From assembly GCA_007375645.1 (NCBI GenBank), contig VMER01000004.1:1-39603 (forward strand): DNA of 39,603 nt. Direction: 5' to 3'. The notes below the pieces were generated by a model, which was given only the letters and a program-made list of their open reading frames with translations, ran no database searches and had not been told where the DNA came from. Position 1 is the stretch's first letter. Each line of letters opens with the position of its first letter. Position numbers and translations under genes: made by a program. This document shows positions 7,453 to 33,650 of this stretch, in pieces. This stretch comes from Parcubacteria group bacterium LiPW_15 (GTDB lineage Bacteria; Patescibacteriota; Minisyncoccia; UBA6257; 2-01-FULL-56-20).

Positions 7453-8316
7453 TCAGATCTCAATATTAAAGTTTCCGAAGTTTTCGCTCATTGAAGGACG
7501 TTCCGCGACATAATAAGCATTTTCGAGACGCAATATTTCTTTGGCTAGTTTTTCATAGGCTTGGGCCCCGGAAGAATCCGGCCGATATAGCGGAATAGGC
7601 TTACCGAAACTTGGAGCTTCGGCCAAAGCAACACTCCTCGGGATCTCCGTATCAAAAACAGTATGCGGGAAATAACGGCGCAGATTCTTGGCCACTTCCC
7701 GGCTCAAATGTTCGCGTTTATCAAACATAGTGAGGAGCGCACCTTTGACGGTTATCGGATGATTCAAATTCTCTTTGATCATGTCGATGGTCTCTAGAAG
7801 CTGACCCAAACCTTCCAAGCTATAATATTCCGCCTGCACGGGGATTATTATTTCGTCGCTTGCGGCGAGCGCGTTGATAGTTAAAAGCGTAAGCGAGGGA
7901 GAAAGATCTATAAGAATATAGTCGTATTCGTGGCGAAGTTGAGTCAAAAACTTGCGCAAAAAATACTCGCGGTTTTCGACGCCGACCAATTCCACCAGCG
8001 CTCCGGCAAGATGCGGGGCAGAAGGAATCAGATGGAAGTTATAAACAAGCGAGGGACGGATGAGACTTTTCGGCGGAACCAGATCTAAAATGCCGTGGTA
8101 AACGCTTTCGCTTATGTGAATCGGGCTCACCCCAAGGTGAGAACTCGCATTACCCTGCGGATCAAAATCCACGAGCAAGACCCGCTTGCCCTGAAGCGCC
8201 AAATACGCCCCCAGATTTACGGCTGTCGTGGTTTTTCCTACTCCGCCTTTTGCGTTGCAAACCGCTATAACACGTGCCATTTTCTTGATTTTAACCCAGA
8301 AAGCCTCTATCATCAA
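7453..8316 (-). CDS. parA: ParA/Soj chromosome partitioning ATPase (true start probably at 8283, MARVIAVCNAKGGVGKTT)
   Basis: deviant Walker A CNAKGGVGKTTTAVNLGAYLA; DFDPQGNASSHLG. Confidence 0.95.
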   Translation of the reverse strand: MMIEAFWVKIKKMARVIAVCNAKGGVGKTTTAVNLGAYLALQGKRVLLVDFDPQGNASSHLGVSPIHISESVYHGILDLVPPKSLIRPSLVYNFHLIPSAPHLAGALVELVGVENREYFLRKFLTQLRHEYDYILIDLSPSLTLLTINALAASDEIIIPVQAEYYSLEGLGQLLETIDMIKENLNHPITVKGALLTMFDKREHLSREVAKNLRRYFPHTVFDTEIPRSVALAEAPSFGKPIPLYRPDSSGAQAYEKLAKEILRLENAYYVAERPSMSENFGNFNIEI

Positions 8317-8334: not shown

Positions 8335-8417
<83 letters not shown>

Positions 8418-8430
8418 CATAAATAAAAAT

Positions 8431-8453
8431 ACGGCCCTTGCGGCTGTTTTTTA
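8431..8453 (+). terminator. intrinsic terminator after tRNA-Leu
   Basis: ACGGCC-cttgc-GGCTGT hairpin followed by T-tract. Confidence 0.6.
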
Positions 8454-8466
8454 TTTGCTTAAAAAG

Positions 8467-8493
8467 TTGACAGAAAACCCGGGAAAATATAAT
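8467..8493 (+). promoter_or_regulatory. sigma70-like promoter for small ORF
   Basis: TTGACA (8467-8472), 15-nt spacer, TATAAT (8488-8493). Confidence 0.65.
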
Positions 8494-8527
8494 CTTTGCT
8501 CAGCGGGACATCATCGAGGGCGGAAAC

Positions 8528-8650
8528 GTGAAGTGGGTGCACGTACACCCCTTTGCCAACTGGCTCCACCGCGCCATCCTCGTCTTCGCCGGCAAGCTCG
8601 ACTACTACAACGGCGACATCAACAAGCTCACCCTCGTCCACGCAAGCTGA
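8528..8650 (+). CDS. 40-aa small protein (M)KWVHVHPFANWLHRAILVFAGKLDYYNGDINKLTLVHAS, GTG start
   Basis: SD-like GAGG 8 nt upstream; 37 of 40 codons end in G/C; own promoter and strong terminator; not in supplied ORF track. Confidence 0.6.
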   Translation: MKWVHVHPFANWLHRAILVFAGKLDYYNGDINKLTLVHAS

Positions 8651-8675
8651 AGACGGCCCTCTCGCCCCACCGCAA

Positions 8676-8703
8676 CCCCGCCGCACCGGCGGGGCCTTTT
8701 TAT
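8676..8703 (+). terminator. intrinsic terminator after small ORF
   Basis: CCCCGCCG-CAC-CGGCGGGG followed by CCTTTTTAT. Confidence 0.85.
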
Positions 8704-8743
8704 TTACAAAACCCGCATTACTGCGGGTTTTGCCTGCCTGCCG

Positions 8744-9325
8744 TCAGGTAGATATTTCTATAATGTCTATCTCTTCTATTTCCACGATTTTCTCTTTCGG
8801 TTTCACGAGTCTCTCCCAATACGGTTTCAAAAGCTTATGAATAAAAATCGCCGAAAGTGCGCCGACCAACAATCCTCCTAAAATGTCCATTGGCCAGTGC
8901 ACTCCCGCGGCAATGCGCGCGATTCCGACCACGAAGGAGAGGCTCAAGAACCAATAGCCGAACTTTCGATTATAAAGCCAAACAATAAGCCCCAGCGCGA
9001 AAAGAAAAGTCATATGGCCTGACGGAAATGATGCGCCGGACTCCGGGATTAAACTTTGAAACCCAAGCGCTTCAAAAGGCCTCGCGTGATAATAGGCAAA
9101 GCGGATCCACTCCGTTATCAATCCCCTTGCCACTATGGCCGCGATAGAAAGCTCGGCGAATATGAAAAGACGCTTGCGGGAATCCTTGGAAAATAACCAA
9201 ATGATAAGTGCAATGACCAGAAAGTATGTCAGATATTTGGCAAAAAATATTATCCCAGCGTCCAAAATTCCGCTCCGATGAGCGAAGCCCCAAAACAACT
9301 CGAATATCTTTCCGTTTAAATCCAT
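8744..9325 (-). CDS. PAP2-family phosphatase (undecaprenyl-diphosphatase-like)
   Basis: RPFEALGF...SGASFPSGHMTFLFALGL...ARIAAGVHWPMDILGGLLVG matches PAP2 motifs. Confidence 0.9.
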   Translation of the reverse strand: MDLNGKIFELFWGFAHRSGILDAGIIFFAKYLTYFLVIALIIWLFSKDSRKRLFIFAELSIAAIVARGLITEWIRFAYYHARPFEALGFQSLIPESGASFPSGHMTFLFALGLIVWLYNRKFGYWFLSLSFVVGIARIAAGVHWPMDILGGLLVGALSAIFIHKLLKPYWERLVKPKEKIVEIEEIDIIEIST

Positions 9326-10649: not shown

Positions 10650-13600
10650 TTATTGGACTTCTTCATCAGCCGCGTCACCCGCATCGGTCAGGACAACGTC
10701 CTTTACCGTACCTGCCGGAATGAGCCGACCAATGATGACATTCTCCTTGAGACCGCGCAGTGTGTCAACCCTTCCCTCAACTGCGGCATTAACGAGCACC
10801 CTTGCGGTGTCTTGGAAGGATGCAGCGGACAAGAAGGATTCCGTGGAAAGAGCAACCCGGGTAATACCCAAAAGAAGTTGTCTCGCTTTGGCCGGAGCTT
10901 TGCCGGCGCGCTTCAGGGCGCGGTTTGTTTCTAGGAATCTGGACTTCTCGATCAGTTCTCCCATAACTAGCTCTGGAGAATCGCCCGCATCGGTAATGCG
11001 CACGCGAGAGAACATTTGTCGCGCAATGATCTCGATGTGTTTGTTGTTGATCGGCGCGCCTTCGCTCGAATAGATCTTCTGAATTTCGCCGATGATGTAA
11101 CGAATAACTTCCTGGGAACCCTTTAGCGCGAGAAGCTCTCTAAGATCAATATGACCCTCGGAAAGCTGATCTCCGGCCTTAACTTTGTCGCCAACCTTGA
11201 AACGCAAGATCAAGGAGCGCGGAACGGAATATTCCGCTTTCTCGGCCGGCTTCTTGGATTTGGATTTCTTTCCGATTTCGCTCTTCTTCCCGGCATCAAG
11301 CTTGACGATGATATTTTTGAGATTGCCTTTTTCTTCAATGTCTTCGATAACTCCGTCACCTTCCGAAAGTATGGCTTTTCCTTTCGGCGGCCGGGCTTCA
11401 AAAAGCTCTTCCACGCGGGGCAAACCATAGGTGATATCAGACGAAGCCACACCACCGGCGTGGAAAGTTTTCATAGTGAGCTGGGTTCCAGGTTCACCGA
11501 TAGACTGGGCAGCGATAACGCCGACCGCTTCGCCGATCTTAACCGGAGTATTGCGGCCGAGGTCCAAGCCGTAACACTGGGCACAAAGGCCGTAGAGCGT
11601 CTTACAGGTCAAGGGAGATCGAACCCTAACGCCATCCGCCTTAGATCTATCTATCTCTTCCGCAATATCTTTGGTGACGACGTCTCCGGCATGAGCAATT
11701 ATCTTGTTGCCGGATTTAACGTCTTCAATAAGCACCCTGGAGAATACGCGGGTGGCAAAACTCTGACGGCCCTGCTCTTCGCCTTCGGAACGAAGCATCG
11801 TCACGCCTTCCTTGGTGTGGCAGTCTTCTTCGCGAATAACAAGATCCTGAGCCACATCCACCAAGCGGCGAGTAAGATATCCGGCCTGGGCGGTCTTGAG
11901 AGCTGTGTCGGTAACACCTTTTCTCGATCCGTGAGTGGAGATGAAGTATTCCAAAACGGAAAGTCCTTCTTTGAGTGAAGATTTGATCGGCAATTCTATC
12001 GGTTCACCCTGAGGATCGCGGACGACACCTTTCATACCCATCATCTGCACCGGCTGAGCCCAGGTTCCGCGAGCGCCGGAATCGATTATCTGATATATCG
12101 GATTATCCGTGCCCAAAGATACGGTAACTTTTTGAGCGATCTCGTCTTTGGCTTTTTCCCAAATGCCGATAACGCGGGCTCGGCGCTCGGGGGCGGTCAA
12201 AAGTCCTTCACTGAAATGTTCTCTGACTTTCGCGGCCTCACCTTCGAACTTCGCAAGAATTGCTTTCTTTTCTACGGGGACTATCAAATCCATGATTGAC
12301 CAGGTGATACCGGAACGGGTCGCGGATTCAAAACCCAAAAGTTTCACGGTGTCCAAAACCTCCGCGGTTTTTTCCGTACCCTTGGTGCGGAAAACCAATT
12401 CCATTACTTTCTCGAGTTTCTTTTTGTTCAGCGCGTCGTTCACGTAAGGAACGGCTCCGCCCAGGGCTTCATTGAAGATCACTCTGCCAATGGTGGTTTT
12501 TTCCTTCATCCCGATCGCTTCAACCAATATCGGTTCGTGTACGGTTATCGCGCCGGTCGCATAAGCCATCATCGCTTCATTGATATCGACAAAAGCCTTG
12601 TTCCGATCGGCGATCAGCGGATCGTTGAGAGTAAGATAGTAAATACCCAAAACGGAATCCTGCGTAAGATTGGTTACGATATCTCCGGTTGCCGGCTTCA
12701 AAAGGTTCTTGCCGGCGGCCATTATTTCCCACGCTTCGCGCTGAGCTTCAACGGAAAGCGGGACATGGACGGCCATCTGGTCGCCATCAAAGTCCGCGTT
12801 GAACGCGTTGCAAACGAGCGGCGGGAATTGTATCGCCAAGCCTTCCACAAGGCGCGGCCTGAATGCCTGTACGGAAAGACGATGCAGGGTCGGAGCGCGG
12901 TTCAAGAGAACTCTCCTGTCTTTGATTATTTCTTCGAGTATCGCCCAAACCTCATCGGTTCCCTGCTCAATGACACGGTTCGCGTTCCTGATGTTATGTG
13001 CGATACCGCGGCGGATTATTTCGCCTATTACGAACGGGCGGAAAAGTTCCAAAGCCATTTTCTTCGGCAGACCGCATTCGTCGATCTTCAAACGAGGACC
13101 GACCACGATAACGGAACGGCCGGAATAGTCCACGCGCTTACCCAAAAGGTTTTGGCGGAAGCGGCCCTGCTTACCCTTCAACATGTCGGCCAAAGATCGA
13201 AGCGGACGCCTGGTGGCATTCATCTGCTGCGCGCCAAAGCGGGCGGAGTTGTCGATCAACGCATCCACGGCTTCCTGAAGCATTCTCTTCTCGTTCTTCA
13301 CTATGATTTCCGGAGCCTTAATCTCCAAAAGTTTTTTCAAACGGTTGTTGCGGTTAATAACGCGCCTATAAAGATCGTTCAGATCGGAAGTCGCATAGCG
13401 ACCGCCGTCCAAGGCAACCATCGGCCTAAGATCCGGAGGAAGCACCGGCAAGACGCTCAAAACCAACCACTCGGGGCGGGCATTATTCTTGATCATGGAG
13501 CGCACGATCTTTAATCTGCGCAGAAGCTTCGCTTCATTAAGCGGATCCTTAACTCCGGCAACTTCTTTTTCAATTTTTTTGACTTCACTCCTCAAATCCA

Positions 13601-16600
13601 GTTGTTCAAGAATTGAACGAACGGCCTCGGCTCCGGTTCCGGCCTTAAAGATGTCGCCGAAACGCTTGGACAACTTGAAATATTCGTCTTCGGAAAGCAC
13701 AAGACCCAGGCGCAGATCATCGATCATTTCACGCAAACCTTCCGCGGAAGAAAGAAGTTCTTTCTTCATAGTCCTGTCCTTTTCCTCGGTAGCTTTAAGT
13801 TTCGCTTTAAGCTCTTTGTCCAGTTCGCCGATAACACGCGTACGCTGTTCTTCGTCCACGTGGGTAACCACGTAATCGACGTAATACATAACTCTTTCGA
13901 GTTTCTGAGCAGGCACGTCCAACAAAAGACTCAGGGGAGACGGGGCGCTCTTCAAGAACCAAATGTGCGCAACCGGCGCAGCGAGAGTGATATGGCCCAA
14001 GCGTTCACGGCGAACGACTGAACGGGTGACCTCAACGCCGCACTTATCGCAAACCACGCCCTTATAACGGATCCTGCGGTATTTTCCGCAATAGCATTCG
14101 TAATCCTTGCTGGGTCCGAAAATGCGCTCGGAAAAGAGTCCGTCTTTTTCCGGCCGTTGAGTACGATAGTTGATAGTTTCCGGTTTTATGACCTCGCCAT
14201 GAGACCAGCCCATAATGTCCGCCGGAGACGCCACTCCTATTTCCAATGCCTCAAAAACATTCTGCTTGCCGCCTTCTTCCGGCTTCGGAACCTGATCCAC
14301 GCGCAAACCCAAAGCTTTAAGTTCGTTTATCAAAACATTAAAGGACGCGGGGATATTCGGCTCGCGGATAGGTTCGCTCCTGATAATGGATTCGTATGCG
14401 GCGGAACGGCCCATCACGTCGTCGGACTTGATGGTCAGCATTTCCTGAAGCATATGGCGGGCGCCATAACCTTCAAGCGCCCAAACTTCCATTTCTCCAA
14501 AACGTTGTCCTCCGAATTGCGCCTTGCCCCCTAAAGGCTGCTGGGTGATCAAGGAGTAGGGACCAATGGAGCGCATATGCACCTTATCTTCAACCAAGTG
14601 GTTGAGTTTCAACATATATATCTGTCCGACCATAACTTTCTGGTCAAACTTATCTCCGGTGCGGCCGTCGTAAAGGTCCACCTTGCCGTCTTCCGGAAGG
14701 CCGGCCTTCCTAAGTTCATCTTTAATTTCTTCTTCGCTTACCGGGTTGAACGAAGGCACAACGGCGCGATAGCCGAGCTTCTTCGCGGCCCAACCCAAAT
14801 GAGTTTCCAAAATTTGTCCGAGGTTCATACGGGAAGCAACGCCCAAAGGATTCAAAATAATATCCACCGGGGTCCCATCGGCCAAGTGAGGCATATCTTG
14901 CACCGGACGGATCTGGGAGATAACACCTTTGTTCCCGTGACGACCGGCGAGCTTATCACCCACCTGCACCTTTCTCAAACTCGCAACTTCCACATGAATC
15001 CTCTTGATAATGCCGGCCTCAAGCTTGTCGCCCTGATCGCGCGAGAAAACTTTTATGCCGACAATTCTGCCGCGCTTGCCGTGCGGAAGAGTAAGCGAAG
15101 TATCTTTAACGTCACGGGCTTTTTCTCCGAAGATGGCGCGCAAAAGTCTTTCCTCTGCGGTAAGCTCGGCTTCGCCGCGCGGAGAAATCTTTCCAACCAA
15201 AATATCTCCGGCCGTGACTTCCGCGCCGATCCTAATTATTCCCTCTTCGTCCAAGTTTTTTAGTTTTTCCTCGGAAACGTTCGGAATATCCGGAGTGGTT
15301 ATTTCGGGACCGAGTTTGGTATCGCGTACGTCGCAGGTATATTCCTCAATGTGAATAGAAGTGAAAATATCGTCGCGGACAACCTGCTCGGAGAGGATTA
15401 TGGCATCCTCGAAGTTCGCCCCGTCCCAAGAGATGAAAGAGACCAAAAGATTCTGGCCGAGAGCCAAAACTCCGTTGTCGATAGAGCTGCCGTCCACCAA
15501 AATATCTCCTTTCTTCACTATTTGGCCCTTATTTGCCAAGGGTTTCTGGGAAATGCGGGTAAACTGGTTGGAACGCTTGAACCTCTCCAAACGATAGTTT
15601 TTTGTGTCCTTCGCGTATTTTACGGTTATGTGATCCGCGTCCACCGCCGTAACTTCTCCCGGACCTTCGGCTTTAATGACGTAGCCGGAATCGGCCGCAA
15701 CTCTTTCCTCTTCGCCGGTACCGACAAGCGGAGCGACAGGTTTAATGGAGCTGACCGCCTGGCGTTGCATGTTCGAAGCCATAAGCGCGCGGTGCGGTTC
15801 GTCGTGTTGGAGAAACGGAATGAGCGAAGTCGCCACGGAAACGAATTGATGCGGGGCAAGTTCAAGAAGATCAACTTCGGCTCTTAAACAGGTACCCGGC
15901 GCGCCGTAGACGCGGGCTTCGACTATCTCCGGAATAATTTTTCCGGAGGCGTCTCTCGGAATCGCAGCGTGGATAATCCTGTATTTTTCTTCTTCAATAG
16001 CATCCATCCAGACCATCTCCTCGGTTGCTTTTCCGTTCTTAACTTTTATATAAGGAGTCTCCAAAAATCCCAGATCGTTCACGCGCGCAAAACTCGCGAG
16101 ATAAGAGATCAAACCGATGTTCGCTCCTTCCGGAGTTTGAATCGGACAAATGCGGCCGTAGTGAGAGCTATGCACGTCGCGGACTTCAAAAGACGCGCGC
16201 TCGCGGGTCAAACCTCCGGGACCCAACGCAGACAAACGCCGCTTGTGCTCCAATTCGGCCAGAGGATTCACCTGGTCCATGAACTGAGAAAGCTGGGAGG
16301 AAGCGAAAAATTCTTTGACCACCGCGGCGATAGGGCGGAAATTTATCAGCTGGGCCGGAACAATGGTGTCTTTCTCGAGCGTGGACATCCTATCCTGAAT
16401 AATGCGTCGAAGCCTCGCGATACCGACGCGCAACCTTCCCTGGAGAAGCTCGCCGACGGCTTTAACGCGGCGGTTTCCCAAATGGTCGATGTCGTCGGGT
16501 TTGGCCACGGGATCATTGTTCAAGCGGATAATCTCGCGAACTATGGCAATTATATCGGCGCCATCCAAAAGCATGTTCTGCTTAATCTTGCCGAAATTAA

Positions 16601-17426
16601 GCCTTTGATTGGCCTTAAAACGACCGACCGCGGAAAGATCATAACGATCCGGACGCTGGAACATGCCGTCAACCAATGACTGAGCTCCGTCCACGGTCGC
16701 CGGATCTCCGGGACGAAGACGGCGATAGATTTCTAGATAAGATTCTCCGACGTTGGCAGCCACATCTTTTTTGAGCGTTGCATCAATATGCTGTAGAGAG
16801 CCTGTATCGATATCGGCAAAAACTTTTCTGATCTCTTCGTCGGTCACGCCGAAAATGCGCAAAAGATCCGTCACCGGAACCTTCCTGTGGCGGTCGATCT
16901 TCACCCCGATGGAACCGTCTACGTCGGTTTCAAATTCGAGCCAACTTCCGCGGTTCGGAATAACCTTGGCTCCGAAAAGGCGGCGATCCCGATATTGGTT
17001 CGCGGTAAAATATACGCCCGCGCTCCTGATAAGCTGAGAAACGACTACGCGCTCTACTCCGTTCATGATGAACGTGCCCCTGTCGGTCATCATCGGAAAT
17101 TCGCCGAAATATACCTCTTGTACATCGGCCTTCCCGGTCAATTTATTAAAAAGTTTTACGCGGATATGAAGCGGCGCCTCCAGACTCGCATCCTTGTAGC
17201 GGGCAGTTACCTCATCATATTTCGGCTCTCCAAAACTATAATCTTCAAAAGTTAATTCAAATTCTTTACCGGTATGGTCGAGAATCGGCGAAACTTCTTT
17301 TAAGAGTTCCCTGAGTCCCTCTTTGAGGAACCATTCGTACGACTTGATCTGCACTTCGTTCAGGTTACTCGGAAACATGAACGATTTGGACTTTGAAAAA
17401 TCCTTGACCGGAAGTCGGTGAGGCAT
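10650..17426 (-). CDS. rpoBC: fused RNA polymerase beta-beta' subunit (RpoB-RpoC), 2258 aa
   Basis: RpoB signatures ([43 protein letters not shown]) followed in frame by RpoC signatures ([55 protein letters not shown]) without a stop. Confidence 0.95.
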
Positions 17427-19622: not shown

Positions 19623-22600
19623 CTACATCCCGTTCAACACTCCCCTCGTCAAAGCTCCCACATATCCCGCTGCCGGGGTAATATTCTGCGCCTTCTGAAA
19701 AGCGATGACGGCTTTTTGGGTCAGAGAGTAGAAGTTGCCGGTAATGGGGCCGGTATAGAAACCGAGCTTGGTCAGAAGTTCTTGAAGTGCGGTGACATCC
19801 TGATCGTTCTCGAGTCCGTAGTAGAGGTTTTTCAAGAATGCGACTTTCGCTGCCGGAGAAACCCCGTTCGGAGTAGCTGCCTCGCCATTTGAAGGCGCAG
19901 AGTTAAGAACGCTTCTTGTTAAGACTCCCACATATCCCACGGCTGGGACAATGTCGTGTTCCTTTTGGAATTTGATGACGGCATTTTGCGTTAAGGAGTA
20001 GAAGTTTCCGGTAATGGGGCCGGAGTAAAATCCTAGTTTTTTCAGAAGCTCTTGAAGTGCGACGACATCATTACTACCCTCCATTCCATAATAGAGATTC
20101 TTGGAGAAGGAATATCCTGGAATGCCGGTGGTAGTAGCGGGAGAGACCGGGGGTGTGCTTGGAGTTGCCGTCGCGGTAGTTGTTGCGGTTGGCGTTACGG
20201 TCACTGACCCGCCGCCACCTCCCCCAGAAGAAGGTGTTCCGGCATTACCCACCATAACAGCACTCCCAGGGTTGGTGATAACCGTAATGGTATGCGTTCC
20301 GGACATCGCCACAGTTGAAGCACTACCCCAAGAACCCACATCGCTGGCTTCAAGAGTGAAAGAGTAGACTCCGGCTGCGGTTGGAGTCCCGGAAAGAGTA
20401 CTCCCATTGAAATGAAGACCGGGCGGCACTGCTCCGCTGGTCACAGAATAAACGACTGTTCCCTGGGAATCGGTAGCGGATGGCAAGGTATAAGAGTAGC
20501 TGTTGCCCATGGTTGCGGACGATGGAAAACTCGGCGAGCCCGGAGTGAAGAATTTATAGAACATGATGCGATTGTTCCCGCTATCGGAAACTATCAGGCG
20601 GCGATTCGTCGAGTTGTAAGATACACCGGTGGTGTAATATAGACCGCTTTGGCCAGTAGTCCCCGTTGAGCTTGTGAAGTCAGCTTTTCCAAAAACCGCA
20701 GAGGCGTTTTGGCCATCAGTCACCGATCCGGCAGCAACATCAAACACCAAAACCCGCTGATTGCTATTATCGCTCACAAATAATTTGCTGTTTGTAGGAT
20801 CATAAGCGAGTCCTGCAAGTTGGTTCATCCTGGACTGAGTTCTGCCGGAAACAGAAGCTGTAAATGTGGTCTGGCCCAAAACATTCGAAGCATTCATGCC
20901 ATTGGAAACCGTGCCGGTTGCGACGGAAAAAATAGTAACGCGATTATATTGCGAATCTCCGACAAACAAACGACTGTTTACGGAATCGTAAGTCAATGAG
21001 ATGGGAGAGCTCATTCCGGATTGGGTTGTTGCCTGGTTAGATGCGGTAAAAGTGGTCTGCCCCAAAACAAAAGAGGCGTTTTTCCCGTTGGAAATTGAGC
21101 TTGTTGCGACATCATATATCGTCACACGATGACTAGAATTACTTCCGACAAACAAACGACTGTTTACGGAATCGAAAGCCAGGGCCAGTGGAGCAATCAT
21201 CCCAGACTGAGTCGTAGCGCTAACCCCACTCGTAAAATCTACCTGTCCCAGGACATAGGATGCATTCATCCCGCTAGCAAGGCTGGATGTATCAAAAATA
21301 AGCACGCGAGAGTTAAAATAATCGGCGACAAATAAGCGATTGCCTACGGGGTCAAAAGCAACATCGGATGGTTTCCTCATTCGGTTTTGCGCACGCGTGG
21401 TGGTTGCCCGAGAATAAAGATTGTCCTGACCAAGCACATAATCGGCTTCGTAATCGACAGGATTGCCTGAAGCATCCAAATTGAAAACTAGGACGCGATT
21501 GTTGTCGAAATCGGCTGCAAAGAGCCTCTGCCCCGCAAGATCAAGCGCTGTCCCGTAGCGATTAGGAAATGTGTACGAATCTCTACCGTCCGCGCCGGCA
21601 GACAGACCATTTGCACTGGGAGCCCCGAACGGCAGATTTTTTATATAATCCGGGTTTCCATTTCCATCGTATTGCCCCAAAACACCTGAGGCGTTCATAC
21701 CATTCGAGACTGTTCCGGTCGCCACGGAAAAGATAAGAAAGCGCTGGTTGTCCGGATCGGAAGCGAACAATTTATTTTCTGCGGGATTGAACATGAGGGT
21801 TCCAATGTATCCAAAACTGGAACCGAATCCATCATTGCCATTACTGAATTTATTCTGGCTTGGCCACGTACTGGCCGGATAGGTTCCGGAGGTGAAATTG
21901 GCCTGTCCCAAAACGAAAGATGCGTTCTTTCCGTTCGTGACAGTGCCGGTAGCTACGTCAAAAATTAATGTGCGAAAATTCACGGCATCGTAAACAAAGA
22001 GCCTATCATTCGCAGTATCATAAGACACGCCTGAAGGATTTTTCATGCTAGCTTGCGTAGTTGCCTGGGTACTGGATGTAAAATTTATCTGCCCCAATAC
22101 AAAAGAAGCGTTTTTCCCGTTCGTGACAGTGCCGGTAGCTACGTCAAAGATAAGCACTCGATTATTATCTTTGTCGCCGACAAATAGCCGGTCATACTCA
22201 GAATCATATTCAAGACCGGTAGGCGCAGACACGCCGCCCTGGGTTGTAGTCGCCGTACTTGAGGTAAACCCGGTCTGCCCCAAAACGAAAGATGCGGACA
22301 TGCCGTTTGTAATGGTGGCCGTATTAAATATAAGTACTCGATTATTATCTTTGTCGCCGACAAATAGACGGTTGCCGACGGAATCATAAGCGAGACCTTC
22401 CGGCGAAGACATTCCAATTTGAGTGGTTGCCGCTGCGCTAGAAGTGAAATTGGCCTGTCCCAAAACGAAAGATGCGGACATGCCGTTTGTAATGGTGGAA
22501 AGATCAAAAACCAAAACTCGATTATTGTCTTGGTCGACCACAAAAAGGCGGTTGCCAACAGAATCATAAGCAAGATCAGTAGGACCCAATAAATTATTGT

Positions 22601-23561
22601 TGGCCACGCCAGCCACATAGTATTTACGAAAGTCCGATTTACCCAAAACATAGTCGGCCGCGGAATCCACCAATTGATTTGAAGAATTAAGATTATAAAC
22701 CAGCACCCTGTATCTATCGGAGACGAATAAACGGTGATTAACTGAATCGATAGCCGCATACCGAGCGTCTAAGAAACCTAAGTTATTAGGAGCATTATTC
22801 GGTGATCGATCGGTATAGGAAGGATTCCCGCTGTCGTCCAACTGCCCTAACAGGCCGTAGGCGTTGTAGTCGGAGCTCTGATAGATCACAAAACTTTGGT
22901 CGCCAGAAATTCCTCCGCCAGGAGCCGGAGTGGAAATATAAACATAGGATGTGCCGGCGCTCGCGATATTTGCGGCCGGGACGGAAGCGGTGAGAACGGT
23001 GGTTGAAGCATAGGTCGTGGTAAGCGGCGAACCGCCCCAGTAGATAACGGAGGAGGGCAGAAAATTAGTTCCGTTAACCGTAAGAGTGAAAGCACTGCCT
23101 CCGGCCAGCGCGGAACTTGGAGAAATGCAAGTGAGCGTCGGCGCAGGAGAGGAAGAGCTATGACAAATGCTTGCCTCAGAGATTGTATAGGTGGAAGAAG
23201 CCGTGGTCTGGGTTATCGTCACGCTCGCGGCAGCGGCGTCGCTACAGGCGGAACTTGTAAAAGTGCTTCCACTACCGCTGGTCAAAGAAACGGAAAAATC
23301 TGAAGATGTGGCATTGATGGTAAAAACATCGCCCGTGGCCAAGGTTACCACCACGGTTGAACTGCCAACCGTCAAAGCATCCGCAGTTGACCCTGGCTGG
23401 ATGACAAAATATGTGTCCGGAGTAGACAGATAAAGTGAGGTTGCAGAGGAATAGGTGAGGGTAGAGGCGGAAGCCGTGTTTACGAGAGAAAAAAGAAGGC
23501 CGAAGGCGACCAATAAAAAGAGACCAAAGGCTGTATTTACAATTCCCCTATTGAGACTCAT
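19623..23561 (-). CDS. large secreted NHL/beta-propeller repeat protein with IPT/TIG-like and putative-Ig domains and two C-terminal PG_binding_1-like domains
   Basis: signal peptide; ~10+ repeats of YDSVGNRLFVGDKDNNRVLIFD...NGMSASFVLGQ; two copies of KNLYYGxExxxDVxALQELLxKLGFYxGPITGNFYSLTQxAVIxFQK. Confidence 0.88.
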   Translation of the reverse strand: MSLNRGIVNTAFGLFLLVAFGLLFSLVNTASASTLTYSSATSLYLSTPDTYFVIQPGSTADALTVGSSTVVVTLATGDVFTINATSSDFSVSLTSGSGSTFTSSACSDAAAASVTITQTTASSTYTISEASICHSSSSPAPTLTCISPSSALAGGSAFTLTVNGTNFLPSSVIYWGGSPLTTTYASTTVLTASVPAANIASAGTSYVYISTPAPGGGISGDQSFVIYQSSDYNAYGLLGQLDDSGNPSYTDRSPNNAPNNLGFLDARYAAIDSVNHRLFVSDRYRVLVYNLNSSNQLVDSAADYVLGKSDFRKYYVAGVANNNLLGPTDLAYDSVGNRLFVVDQDNNRVLVFDLSTITNGMSASFVLGQANFTSSAAATTQIGMSSPEGLAYDSVGNRLFVGDKDNNRVLIFNTATITNGMSASFVLGQTGFTSSTATTTQGGVSAPTGLEYDSEYDRLFVGDKDNNRVLIFDVATGTVTNGKNASFVLGQINFTSSTQATTQASMKNPSGVSYDTANDRLFVYDAVNFRTLIFDVATGTVTNGKNASFVLGQANFTSGTYPASTWPSQNKFSNGNDGFGSSFGYIGTLMFNPAENKLFASDPDNQRFLIFSVATGTVSNGMNASGVLGQYDGNGNPDYIKNLPFGAPSANGLSAGADGRDSYTFPNRYGTALDLAGQRLFAADFDNNRVLVFNLDASGNPVDYEADYVLGQDNLYSRATTTRAQNRMRKPSDVAFDPVGNRLFVADYFNSRVLIFDTSSLASGMNASYVLGQVDFTSGVSATTQSGMIAPLALAFDSVNSRLFVGSNSSHRVTIYDVATSSISNGKNASFVLGQTTFTASNQATTQSGMSSPISLTYDSVNSRLFVGDSQYNRVTIFSVATGTVSNGMNASNVLGQTTFTASVSGRTQSRMNQLAGLAYDPTNSKLFVSDNSNQRVLVFDVAAGSVTDGQNASAVFGKADFTSSTGTTGQSGLYYTTGVSYNSTNRRLIVSDSGNNRIMFYKFFTPGSPSFPSSATMGNSYSYTLPSATDSQGTVVYSVTSGAVPPGLHFNGSTLSGTPTAAGVYSFTLEASDVGSWGSASTVAMSGTHTITVITNPGSAVMVGNAGTPSSGGGGGGSVTVTPTATTTATATPSTPPVSPATTTGIPGYSFSKNLYYGMEGSNDVVALQELLKKLGFYSGPITGNFYSLTQNAVIKFQKEHDIVPAVGYVGVLTRSVLNSAPSNGEAATPNGVSPAAKVAFLKNLYYGLENDQDVTALQELLTKLGFYTGPITGNFYSLTQKAVIAFQKAQNITPAAGYVGALTRGVLNGM

Positions 23562-29082: not shown

Positions 29083-29847
29083 CTGTTGAATTAGCCGCTA
29101 GCGACTAGTAAATAGCCACTAGGGTTCATTGTCCATCATTGCTGATGGGATCGGACTATACCATCACCCGAACATTTATGTTTTTGGGTGGTTGACGTGT
29201 TAGCAAGGCTTATGCCTCACTCTGCTCTTTGCATTTTTAGAGCAAGTCTCTACGGGGTCAATACACGTTTCTTTCTTTTTTTGGAATAATTGAGCTCCCG
29301 ATAAGAATCGATAAGCGTAAGCAGAGTCGAAAAATCTTTTTCGTTCTCAACCTTCGCTTTCAGTTCAATTATCTTAAGCATTAGTTCCAATTGTCTTTTC
29401 TTCAAAATGACGAATGGTTTTACCGACTCCAGGAACTTTTTGATGTCATCTATTTTACTGATGGCATATTCCAGGATTCCGTCTTTCCTTTCGCGCATTT
29501 TTCCGCATCCAATAAGTTCGCATACCGCTTCAAAGTTTTCCTTATCTTGGGCGGACTGAAACAACACTACGTACAGAGCGATTTGGAATCCGTACCGATA
29601 GGTAGAATTCGGTTTTGCTCTTACATAAATGCTGCCGTCCCCATCAAGGAAACCGGCGATATATGCTCTTTTATTGGACGATAAAGACTTTGATAACATG
29701 TACGACTTCCCTCGATATTATCCTAACATATGACAGGTTGAATGTCTTGTATTGTTAGGACTTCATCGATATGAGTCAACTTATGCATCCAGTTATTCCT
29801 AACTGGAGCCGCCGTGTGTTCGATGTCATTTCCTCGGGTTCATTTTG
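29083..29847 (-). other. group I intron in 23S rRNA at E. coli ~2593 (L2593)
   Basis: 5' exon ...GAGCTGGGTTCAAACCGT ends in U; intron ends in G before 3' exon CGTGAGACAGGTTGGG; conserved GGTATAGTCC core near 3' end; encodes LAGLIDADG endonuclease. Confidence 0.88.
29250..29699 (-). CDS. LAGLIDADG homing endonuclease, I-CreI-like
   Basis: AYIAGFLDGDGSIYVRAKPNSTYRYGFQIALYV...FLESVKPFVILKKRQLELMLKIIE aligns by eye with I-CreI (LAGFVDGDGSIIAQIKPNQSYKFKHQLSLTF...QPFLKLKQKQANLVLKIIE). Confidence 0.93.
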   Translation of the reverse strand: MLSKSLSSNKRAYIAGFLDGDGSIYVRAKPNSTYRYGFQIALYVVLFQSAQDKENFEAVCELIGCGKMRERKDGILEYAISKIDDIKKFLESVKPFVILKKRQLELMLKIIELKAKVENEKDFSTLLTLIDSYRELNYSKKRKKRVLTP

Positions 29848-31280
29848 ACGGTTTGAACCCAGCTCACGTGGCCTTTTAATTGGCGAACAGCCAAACGCTT
29901 GGGAGCTTCTCCACCCCCGCGCTAGGCCGAGCCGACATCGAGGTGCCGAGCATGATCGTCGCTGTGGACGCTCGGATCATACTAGCCTGTTATCCCCGGA
30001 GTAGCTTTTATCCGTTGTCTCCGACCGTTCTATTAAGTGTCGTCGGGTCACTAAGTTCTGCTTTCGCATCTGCTCGACTTGTAGGTCTCGCAGTTAAGCC
30101 GGCTTTTGCCTTTACGCGTCGTGCCCGGTTTCCATCCGGACTAAGCCGACCTTAATAAACTCCTCCGTTACTCTTTAGGAGGAAAACGCCCCATTTAAAC
30201 TACCCGCCAGACACTGTCCCAGTTAGGTTTACCTTTTTGGGCTTCCTAACCGGTTAGCTTTTAAAATTGTGAAGATGGCTGTTTCATTGTCGAGTCCACG
30301 CAAACCGAAATCCACGTATCAACCTCTCACCACTACGCTACGCATCAAAACTCTAAAAGCAATATCAAGCTATAGTAAAGCTTCCGGGGTCTTTTCGTCC
30401 CGCTGCAGGTATCCCGCGTCTTCACGGGAATCGCATTTTCACCGAGCTCATCGTTGAGACAGTTCTCCAGTCGTTACGCCTTTCGTGCGCTTCGGAACTT
30501 ACCCGAAAAGGAATTGCGCTACCTTAGAACGGTTATAGTTACCGCTGACATTGACGAGGGCTTCGGGCGGTACGTAACACACCTTGCGGCATGCCACATC
30601 CACCGTTAACCTTCTCGCATCGGTCAGGCGTCACCCCCTATACATCCTATTGCTAGTTAGCAGGGAGCTGTGTTTTTGGTAAACAGTCGCTAGAGATACT
30701 TTCGCTGCGGCTCCGCTTGCGCGGAGCAGGCCTTATCCCGAAGTTACGGCCGCTTTTTTGCCGAGTTCCTTAACGATGACTCACTCGTTCCCCTTAGGCT
30801 TCTCGCCTCACCCACCAGTGGCGGTTTACGGTACGGAAGCCACACTATCGCTTTACTGGGTTTTTCTCGGAAGGCTCTTCGTTCACGTCCGCCCGGTAAA
30901 AACCGAACGTTCTCCCTCTCTCGGCCGAAGCCTTCAAGCAGGAATGCCAAACCAATAAGGCACGTGAATTTATTTTCTTCGTCCCCCAGATATGATAATG
31001 CGGCTGTGCAGGAATATTAACCTGCTGTCCATCAGCTGCGGCTTTCGCCATTGCCTTAGGGCCGACTAACCCGTGGTTGATTGCCAGTGCCACGGAAACC
31101 TTGGATTTGCGGGGTCTCAATTTCTCATTGGGATTGTGGTTACTCATTCCAACATTCTCTCTTCTTGGCGCTCCACGGGTCCTCGCGGATCCCGCTTCGC
31201 AGCAGCCAAGAATGCTCTCCTACCACTTGCGGACTTGATTGAGGAGGCGAGTTTGGTACTCGCCGGAAACCTGAAAGGCG

Positions 31281-31356
31281 TGGTGTGTCGTAGAGGACTT
31301 GAACCCCCAACTGAGAGATTTAGAGTCTCCCGCTCTACCAATTGAGCTAACGACAC
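31281..31356 (-). tRNA. tRNA with CUA (amber) anticodon, CCA encoded
   Basis: GTGTCGT TA GCTC AATTGGTA GAGC G GGAGA CTCTAAA TCTCT CAGTT GGGGG TTCAAGT CCTCT ACGACAC A CCA; all stems pair. Confidence 0.85.
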
Positions 31357-31389
31357 ACGCTTCCTTTCGAAAAGAACTGGTCAAAGAAA

Positions 31390-31465
31390 TGGAGCAGGTG
31401 GAAGGATTCGAACCCCCGACCCCCGGCATCCTGTGACGGTGCTCTGCCCACTGAGCTACACCCGC
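31390..31465 (-). tRNA. tRNA-like gene (Gly-like acceptor, U73) with aberrant anticodon arm, CCA encoded
   Basis: GCGGGTG TA GCTC AGTGGGCA GAGC A CCGTC ACAGGAT GCCGG GGGTC GGGGG TTCGAAT CCTTC CACCTGC T CCA. Confidence 0.75.
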
Positions 31466-31485
31466 TCATTTCTTTTCTGAGAATT

Positions 31486-31564
31486 TGGTGGAACTGGGTG
31501 GATTGCAACCACCGACCTCCCGAGACCCTCTCGGGCGCTCTTCTGCTTGCTGAGCTACAGTCCC
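31486..31564 (-). tRNA. tRNA-like gene with aberrant anticodon loop GAGGGTC, CCA encoded
   Basis: GGGACTG TA GCTC AGCAAGCAGAA GAGC G CCCGA GAGGGTC TCGGG AGGTC GGTGG TTGCAAT CCACC CAGTTCC A CCA. Confidence 0.75.
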
Positions 31565-31590
31565 ACTTATTTCTTTTTGAAGAAGATCAA

Positions 31591-31665
31591 TGGTGGGCGG
31601 TAGTCGATTCGAACGACTGACCGGCGGCCTATCGAGCCGCTGCTCTTCCGCTGAGCTACCCGCCC
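31591..31665 (-). tRNA. tRNA-like gene with loop TCGATAG (GAU at anticodon position but C33), CCA encoded
   Basis: GGGCGGG TA GCTC AGCGGAA GAGC A GCGGC TCGATAG GCCGC CGGTC AGTCG TTCGAAT CGACT ACCGCCC A CCA; G7/A66 mismatch. Confidence 0.75.
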
Positions 31666-31710
31666 ACTCACTTTTCTTCTTATCTTTCACATGTATTGAT
31701 TCCCAAGAAA

Positions 31711-31800
31711 TGGTCGGGTCGGCAGGAATTGAACCCGCGACCCCGTCGGTCCCGAAGCGCTTCGGCTTTGACGTGCTCTGCCAGGCTGAGCTACGACCCG
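31711..31800 (-). tRNA. tRNA-Pro-like gene with ~13-nt insertion in anticodon arm, CCA encoded
   Basis: CGGGTCG TA GCTC AGCCTGGCA GAGC A CGTCAAAGCCGAAGCGCTTCGGGACCGACG GGGTC GCGGG TTCAATT CCTGC CGACCCG A CCA. Confidence 0.75.
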
Positions 31801-31822
31801 ACCTTTCTTCCAACATGTGTAG

Positions 31823-31955
31823 ACTGCCCGTTCTTAAGGAGTCATCGGAGTTTTGATGGGCTTGGTTTCACGCGAAGCGTGAACCATCAAAACGAGATAC
31901 AGGCGCAAAATTTCCGCTGGAGAAATTTTGACGCCGGTCCTTAAGAACGGGCAGT
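31823..31955 (-). repeat. long hairpin element (18-bp perfect inverted repeat with two internal hairpins) inside helix-45 IVS
   Basis: actgcccgttcttaagga (31823-31840) / tccttaagaacgggcagt (31938-31955); inner gttttgatgg/ccatcaaaac, ttcacgc-gaa-gcgtgaa and caaaatttc/gaaattttg. Confidence 0.9.
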
Positions 31956-32611
31956 CGTGATCCTCAATCAAGTCCGCAAATCCATAGCTTCGGTAGCGCG
32001 CTTAGCCCCGGTACATTTTCGGCGCTCCATACCAATCGAATAGTGAGTTGTTACACACTCTTTAAAGGATGGCTACCTCTAAGCCAACCTCCTATCTGTC
32101 CATGGTACAAAACTGCCTTTTACACTTAGCGCGCATTTAGGGACCTTAGCTTATGGTCTGGGCTGTTCCCCTCACGTACACGGAGCTTAGCCCCCGCGTA
32201 CTGACTACCTGGATTCCATGCACGGTATTCGGAGTTTGATTGGTCGGGCAGTCTTTCGACTATTACCGACCATCCAGTGCTCTACCCCCATGCATTACCG
32301 CCAGGCGCTAGTCCTAAAACTATTTCGGAGAGAACTAGCTATTACCGAAATCGATTAGCTTTTCACTCCTTACCCCAAGTCATCCGAGAGTGTTGCACAA
32401 CTCACCGGTTCGGACCTTCCTCCATCTTTCGACGGAGTTCATCCTGCTCAGGGCAAGCTCTTCCGGCTTCGAGTCTTATGCACGCGACTATCCTAAAAGG
32501 ATTACGCCCTATTCAGACTCGGTTTCCCTATGGATGCTCCCCCTAGGGGGATTATCCGAGCCACGTGCACAAAGTCGTTGGATCATTCTTCAATAGGCAC
32601 ACTATCGTCCG

Positions 32612-32879
32612 CTGCATCCCGAACAAATAAAGCGAGATATTGGTGGATTCGGCTTCTGCCGATTCCGCGACGCTCCGACGAAAGTGTAGTCTCGATGAAA
32701 CTACATTGAGGAGGTGCAACAATGGAATCGGCGAAGTCCGAATCCATACCAGATTATTTTTATTTCTGGCTTCGTTGCGCGTCGCTCATGTATCAGCTTC
32801 TGATACACATCGCTTCTTGCGCCTGGCCAGAAATAAAAATTCTTCTGGCCAATGCTCGTTCTATTTGTTCGGGATGCAG
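32612..32879 (-). other. helix-25 intervening sequence of 23S rRNA
   Basis: perfect inverted repeat ctgcatcccgaacaaata (32612-32629) / tatttgttcgggatgcag (32862-32879) with internal long hairpins, located between the CCTGAAACC segment and the next conserved 23S segment. Confidence 0.85.
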
Positions 32880-32949
32880 TCTAGACTTTAGTTCCTTGTA
32901 GACAAATGGTTTCAGGTTCTATTTCAACGGCCTCACCGGCCTGCTTTTA

Positions 32950-32980
<31 letters not shown>

Positions 32981-33650
32981 ATCATCAAAAGTATTTAGCC
33001 TTGCCTGATAGTACAGGCGAATTCCTTCAAGGCTTTCTTACCTTGAAGTACTCAAGAAAATAAACTAAAAAGTTCATCTGTTTTCGCCTACGGGGCTATC
33101 ACCCACTTTGGCTTCGCTTTCCAGCGAATTCGACTAACAAATGATTTTGTAACTTCTCCTTAGATCTAACCGCTATGCACTAGAGATGCACACAGCGGTT
33201 AAATCCAGTGTCTATTTCTTATGACCCCAAAAATAAATCTTGCGAAAAACTTTTGGTTTAGGCTCTGCCCGTTTCGCTCGCCGCTACTAAGGGTATAAAG
33301 ATTTTTCTTTTTTCCACCAGGTACTGAAATGTTTTACTTCCCTGGGTTCGCTCCTTGGCTTGCGCCAAGATAATTGAGGTTTACTCAATTGGGTTGCCCC
33401 ATTCGGAAATCCCCGGATCATCGGTTGCTACACACCTTCCCGAGGCGTATCGCCGCTACGCTGCGTCCTTCGTCGCCTTTTGATGTCAAGGCATCCACCA
33501 TTCGCCCTTATGCCAGCCATCCCAATGCTGATTTAACTTAAATGCGGACTTAATTTCTATTAAGTCTTACCTTTAATTTACCCAATCACCTTCATAAGGT
33601 GTTGGGGTTCGCATACTTCGATTTTCAAATTTCAGGAATGTATATTCACG

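Follow-up and report, generated by a model that had tools for sequence, protein, structure and literature searches.

A unit of some 240 bp in the window, by which we mean the whole 39,603-bp contig analysed here, is very probably a moron-like cassette: one coding stretch of foreign composition, equipped with a promoter and a terminator of its own. The cassette has probably decayed, a deletion having brought its promoter up to the 3′ portion of a gene that was once longer. The source genome (792 kb, 98% complete, 5 contigs) carries a dozen or so larger cassettes that resemble it.

Anatomy and surroundings of the unit

The unit opens with exact matches to a TTGACA −35 box (8467–8472, plus strand) and a TATAAT −10 box (8488–8493, plus strand), separated by a spacer of 15 nt that lies below the optimal 17. 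This is the sole perfect TTGACA/TATAAT site of the window, and none appeared in 100 shuffles. A leader of 34 nt runs from the −10 box to a GTG codon and includes a weak Shine-Dalgarno-like GAGG (8516–8519, plus strand) 8 nt before the GTG. The ORF of 40 codons that begins there (8528–8650, plus strand; GTG 8528–8530, TGA 8648–8650) lies in a frame that is open back to 8471. It is followed by an intrinsic terminator (8676–8704, plus strand), the stem of which (8676–8694) comprises eight G-C pairs and a loop of 3 and is succeeded by CCTTTTT. Promoter, GAGG, GTG ORF and terminator had all been described in a reading of the letters alone (the sequence-only reading); all are present.

Terminators of two neighbouring genes bound the unit. 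On the left, the tRNA-Leu (CAA) gene (8335–8418, plus strand; ARAGORN, Rfam) ends in a terminator at 8431–8456 (plus strand; stem 8431–8447, then a T run), and the left neighbouring protein gene encodes a ParA/Soj ATPase (7453–8316, minus strand; Pfam AAA_31, 1e-58). On the right, the convergent gene of a PAP2-family phosphatase (8744–9325, minus strand; Pfam PAP2, 4e-18) has its terminator, an 11-bp perfect inverted repeat, at 8707–8732 (minus strand). The independent transcription unit that had been proposed is thus upheld as a prediction, with a perfect promoter and a terminator of its own between two other terminators, and it is likely transcribed from about 8500 to 8701.

Coding signal of the 40-codon frame

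Thirty-seven of the 40 codons end in G or C. The resulting GC3 of 0.925 contrasts, as the sequence-only reading had noticed, with 0.51–0.53 in the two neighbouring genes; the mean for the genes of the genome is 0.54 (sd 0.07–0.08), and among 73,241 windows of forty codons taken from other genes, only 0.13% reach the value of the unit. Codon log-odds based on the codon frequencies of 15 further high-GC3 genes from the source genome gave the plus frame 21 bits over the 40 codons and 29.7 bits over its best segment. This last score was attained by 0 of 2000 dinucleotide shuffles, which served as the null (mean 5.9, sd 1.7, maximum 15.5), and the contrast of GC3 with GC1 and GC2 was equally beyond all 2000. 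The remaining frames and the opposite strand scored negatively. Because the plus frame behind the promoter scores beyond the shuffles and the other frames are negative, the stretch is coding, or was until recently.

These data bear on three other readings. A structured non-coding RNA, in which the codon bias would be a by-product of C-rich composition, would suit a unit of about 200 nt that stands isolated with its promoter and terminator and whose ends can pair in the minimum-energy fold. However, the folding z-score is merely −1.6 even with the terminator included, the Rfam search proposed along with this alternative returned no credible match even at E 10, and the codon signal is frame-specific and out of reach of the shuffles; we consider the RNA improbable and the frame coding-like. 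Searches for tmRNA, SRP and 6S RNA gave no match in the region of the unit (ARAGORN, Rfam), and the idea of a divergent RNase P RNA was abandoned, as RNase P is located elsewhere in the genome.

A gene on the minus strand, where a 75-aa ORF (8459–8686) stays open for 75 codons, can be given almost no credence: its codon score is −3.6 bits, compared with +17.7 for the plus frame when that region is scored, promoter and terminator lie on the plus strand, and its composition, VVVVELAGEDEDG, is what NNC codons typically leave as a shadow on the opposite strand. The unit might, finally, be a product of chance, with a spurious ORF lying between an unrelated promoter and terminator, or of an error in sequence or assembly. 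The orphan sequence and the draft state of the genome, in 5 contigs, would agree with this, but the codon statistics, the perfect promoter and the many similar units in the source genome make it very improbable.

A class of stand-alone high-GC3 genes

The sequence-only reading had attributed the extreme GC3 to high expression. This is not borne out, as the genes for the ribosomal proteins S11, S12 and L27, EF-G, DnaK and the RpoBC fusion of the source genome have a GC3 of 0.54–0.61. What extreme GC3 marks in this genome is a class of orphan genes that stand alone (GC3 0.74–0.92), and the unit is a member of it. The class was surveyed among 703 predicted genes over 694 kb of the source genome with a GC3 cut-off of ≥0.74, which 16 genes reached; the class numbers are approximate because genes were called mechanically, as the longest ORFs that do not overlap. 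A near-consensus promoter lies ≤220 nt upstream of 7 of these 16 genes versus 25 of the 687 others (P 2e-6), an enrichment of about 20-fold as an odds ratio. Conversely, 8 of the 14 perfect promoters of the source genome (spacer 15–18) precede lone genes of high GC3. Visual inspection of examples showed good GGAGG sites and G+C-rich terminators in most of them, and a Pfam scan of ten cassette proteins assigned mostly no family. Members are found, among others, at L057:13535–14098, L071:8424–8693 and L067 near 4252 (minus strand), and on L074, L063, L064, L076 and L077.

Truncated tail or complete microprotein

A complete, functional gene of this class, translated from the GTG at 8528 into a microprotein of 40 aa, would account for the proper order of promoter, leader, GAGG-N8-GTG, ORF and terminator and for the strong coding statistics. 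The 34-nt leader and the spacing of GAGG and GTG would be workable for an intact gene, which counts against truncation. Nevertheless, the coding signal reaches upstream of the GTG as far as CAG 8501, 8 nt past the −10 box. The nine in-frame codons at 8501–8527 on the plus strand (CAG CGG GAC ATC ATC GAG GGC GGA AAC, for QRDIIEGGN), which we interpret as left over from the truncated gene and which are predicted to be leader in the RNA, score 6.9 bits (permutation P 0.002), a value that 1 of 14 real leaders of other cassettes attains. The start also differs from those of the other listed cassettes, which have GGAGG or AAGGAG sites, nearly all ATG starts and mostly 89–458 codons.

The protein homology search that had been suggested was run across the genomes of the order (244), the class (384) and the phylum, and was extended to GTDB contigs, IMG/VR, phages and plasmids; it revealed no significant relative of the peptide. 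Searches of Pfam, PHROGs, NCBIfam, PADLOC and the PDB with the protein of the unit gave nothing, and a DNA search of 60 relatives gave 15–46 nt of noise only. Among about 600 genomes, the best protein match fell on a lone orphan ORF of 85 aa with a proper AGGAG site in genome G059 (L119:3001–3255, also covered by L022), for which no relatives were found in turn. The alignment, with 17 of 47 residues identical, opens with DIIxGGxV, a stretch that begins ahead of the GTG and spans it, and closes with INKLTxV, close to the C-terminus of either protein; it drops from 33 to 24 bits without the part before the GTG. Its E value of 7e-4 to 1e-3 per genome is at noise level given the some 600 genomes searched. 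Other protein matches were dropped as relatives, being inside large proteins or off-frame. In our judgement the G059 ORF is the favoured candidate relative, as it is a real stand-alone ORF with a collinear C-terminus; if the relationship is true, the window ORF would lack about 31 N-terminal residues.

We therefore lean towards a 5′-truncated tail rather than a complete gene, because of the coding signal before the GTG, the candidate homology across it, the weakness of GAGG and GTG as a start and the shortness of the ORF. The complete, conserved microprotein of the sequence-only reading did not hold up, since no significant relative was found and both the coding signal and the candidate homology start upstream of the GTG. 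We rate a complete and functional microprotein as rather unlikely overall, and as a minority reading, somewhat less doubtful, once the unit is granted to be a cassette. Membrane association, which had been suggested from the composition, found no support either: over windows of 19 residues the Kyte-Doolittle mean is 0.80 at most, well under the usual transmembrane level, and no transmembrane helix is indicated.

An empty site in a related genome

A comparison with genome G023 (L094), which belongs to the same family and consists of a single contig, reveals the site without the unit. ParA, tRNA-Leu, PAP2, rpsR and ssb are collinear in both genomes, with identities of 66% for ParA and 45% for PAP2, and the distance from tRNA-Leu to PAP2 is 33 bp in G023 and 325 bp in the source genome. 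The unit was presumably gained by insertion rather than lost in G023; gain would be the more economical course because the codon usage of the unit is foreign, although the comparison consists of one empty site and does not by itself decide the direction.

A second cassette has a comparable setting. The cassette at L057:13535–14098, the large cassette of highest GC3 (0.92), is flanked by ManB and FtsK, which adjoin each other in G023, and has one weak relative only among 60 genomes. Next to the tRNA-Leu gene of another genome, G037 (L087:1597–1775), an adjoining TTGACA is fused to an ORF of 25–29 codons with a GC3 of 0.92, followed by a terminator; by analogy, this piece may be a parallel remnant.

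Flanking repeats of the window unit were considered as an insertion scar and rejected as unconvincing. They amount to complementarity between the T-tracts of the terminators and to an imperfect 11-nt repeat with a single mismatch (AATACGGCCCT at 8428, AAGACGGCCCT at 8650).

Other features of the window

The 23S rRNA gene (29728–33520, minus strand) contains a large insertion at 31281–31970, at about position 1218 of the Rfam LSU model (H45 region). The insertion harbours four or five tRNA genes (one for Ile, two for Pro, a Pyl/CTA call and an undefined one) and is a tRNA array in an intervening sequence. The rpoB and rpoC genes are fused in one ORF of 2258 aa (10650–17426, minus strand) in which the Rpb2 domains of Pfam precede the Rpb1 domains. 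A protein of 1312 aa (19623–23561, minus strand) displays numerous NHL repeats and, at its C-terminus, two stretches that match peptidoglycan-binding domains (Pfam).

Discussion

We propose that a cassette was inserted between genes that are adjacent in a relative, and that a deletion subsequently fused its promoter to the 3′ part of its gene. Judged by the candidate relative in G059, the parent gene would have had at least about 75–85 codons and encoded a small orphan protein of some 80 residues. The decayed remainder would consist of the promoter, about 50 codons and the terminator, and is probably still transcribed. Its GTG and weak GAGG could yield a soluble, aromatic peptide of 40 aa, most likely without the original function. 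Truncation and continued transcription, like the gain by insertion, are inferred.

Reduced-genome patescibacteria are expected to hold few dispensable genes. A class of orphan genes, each under a strong promoter of its own and differing in codon usage from the highly expressed genes of the host, raises questions of origin and function, and of the route of entry, given that no mobility genes are visible. The 240-bp unit is minor in itself, but it led to the class and may show how a cassette decays. More tentatively, and with slightly less than even confidence, we suggest that patescibacterial chromosomes hold a standing, turning-over pool of moron-like cassettes that are gained and eroded singly at intergenic sites, of which the window unit and the G037 fragment would represent stages of decay. 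Each cassette of such a pool would be one orphan gene with a consensus promoter, a strong terminator and extreme GC3 codon usage, in a tiny genome; the genomes of the relatives are mostly 0.4–1.2 Mb. A limited search found no literature on such cassettes in Patescibacteria.

Among known systems, integron gene cassettes are likewise single-gene mobile units at intergenic sites. They usually lack a promoter and end in an attC site, whereas the unit has a promoter and a terminator and is not part of an array. Bacterial leader peptides and small intergenic sORFs share with the unit a short ORF, a promoter and a terminator. However, the unit is not followed by a gene in its own orientation that it could regulate, as its terminator closes it and the next gene is convergent.

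The closest resemblance is to phage morons, which are single coding regions of differing composition, flanked by a promoter and a terminator and inserted between genes that are adjacent in related phages (PMC4378225, PMC3029335). The unit likewise comprises a single coding region with its own promoter, its own terminator and a differing nucleotide composition, and the two genes on either side of it are neighbours in a relative. A known acquisition mechanism is lacking for both. In contrast to morons, the unit is apparently decayed and resides in a bacterial chromosome (ParA, tRNA-Leu, PAP2, rpsR, ssb) rather than in a phage or prophage, of which neither its housekeeping flanks nor the searches of phages gave any sign. 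Because four features of morons are present and the phage location is not, we call the unit moron-like and not a moron.
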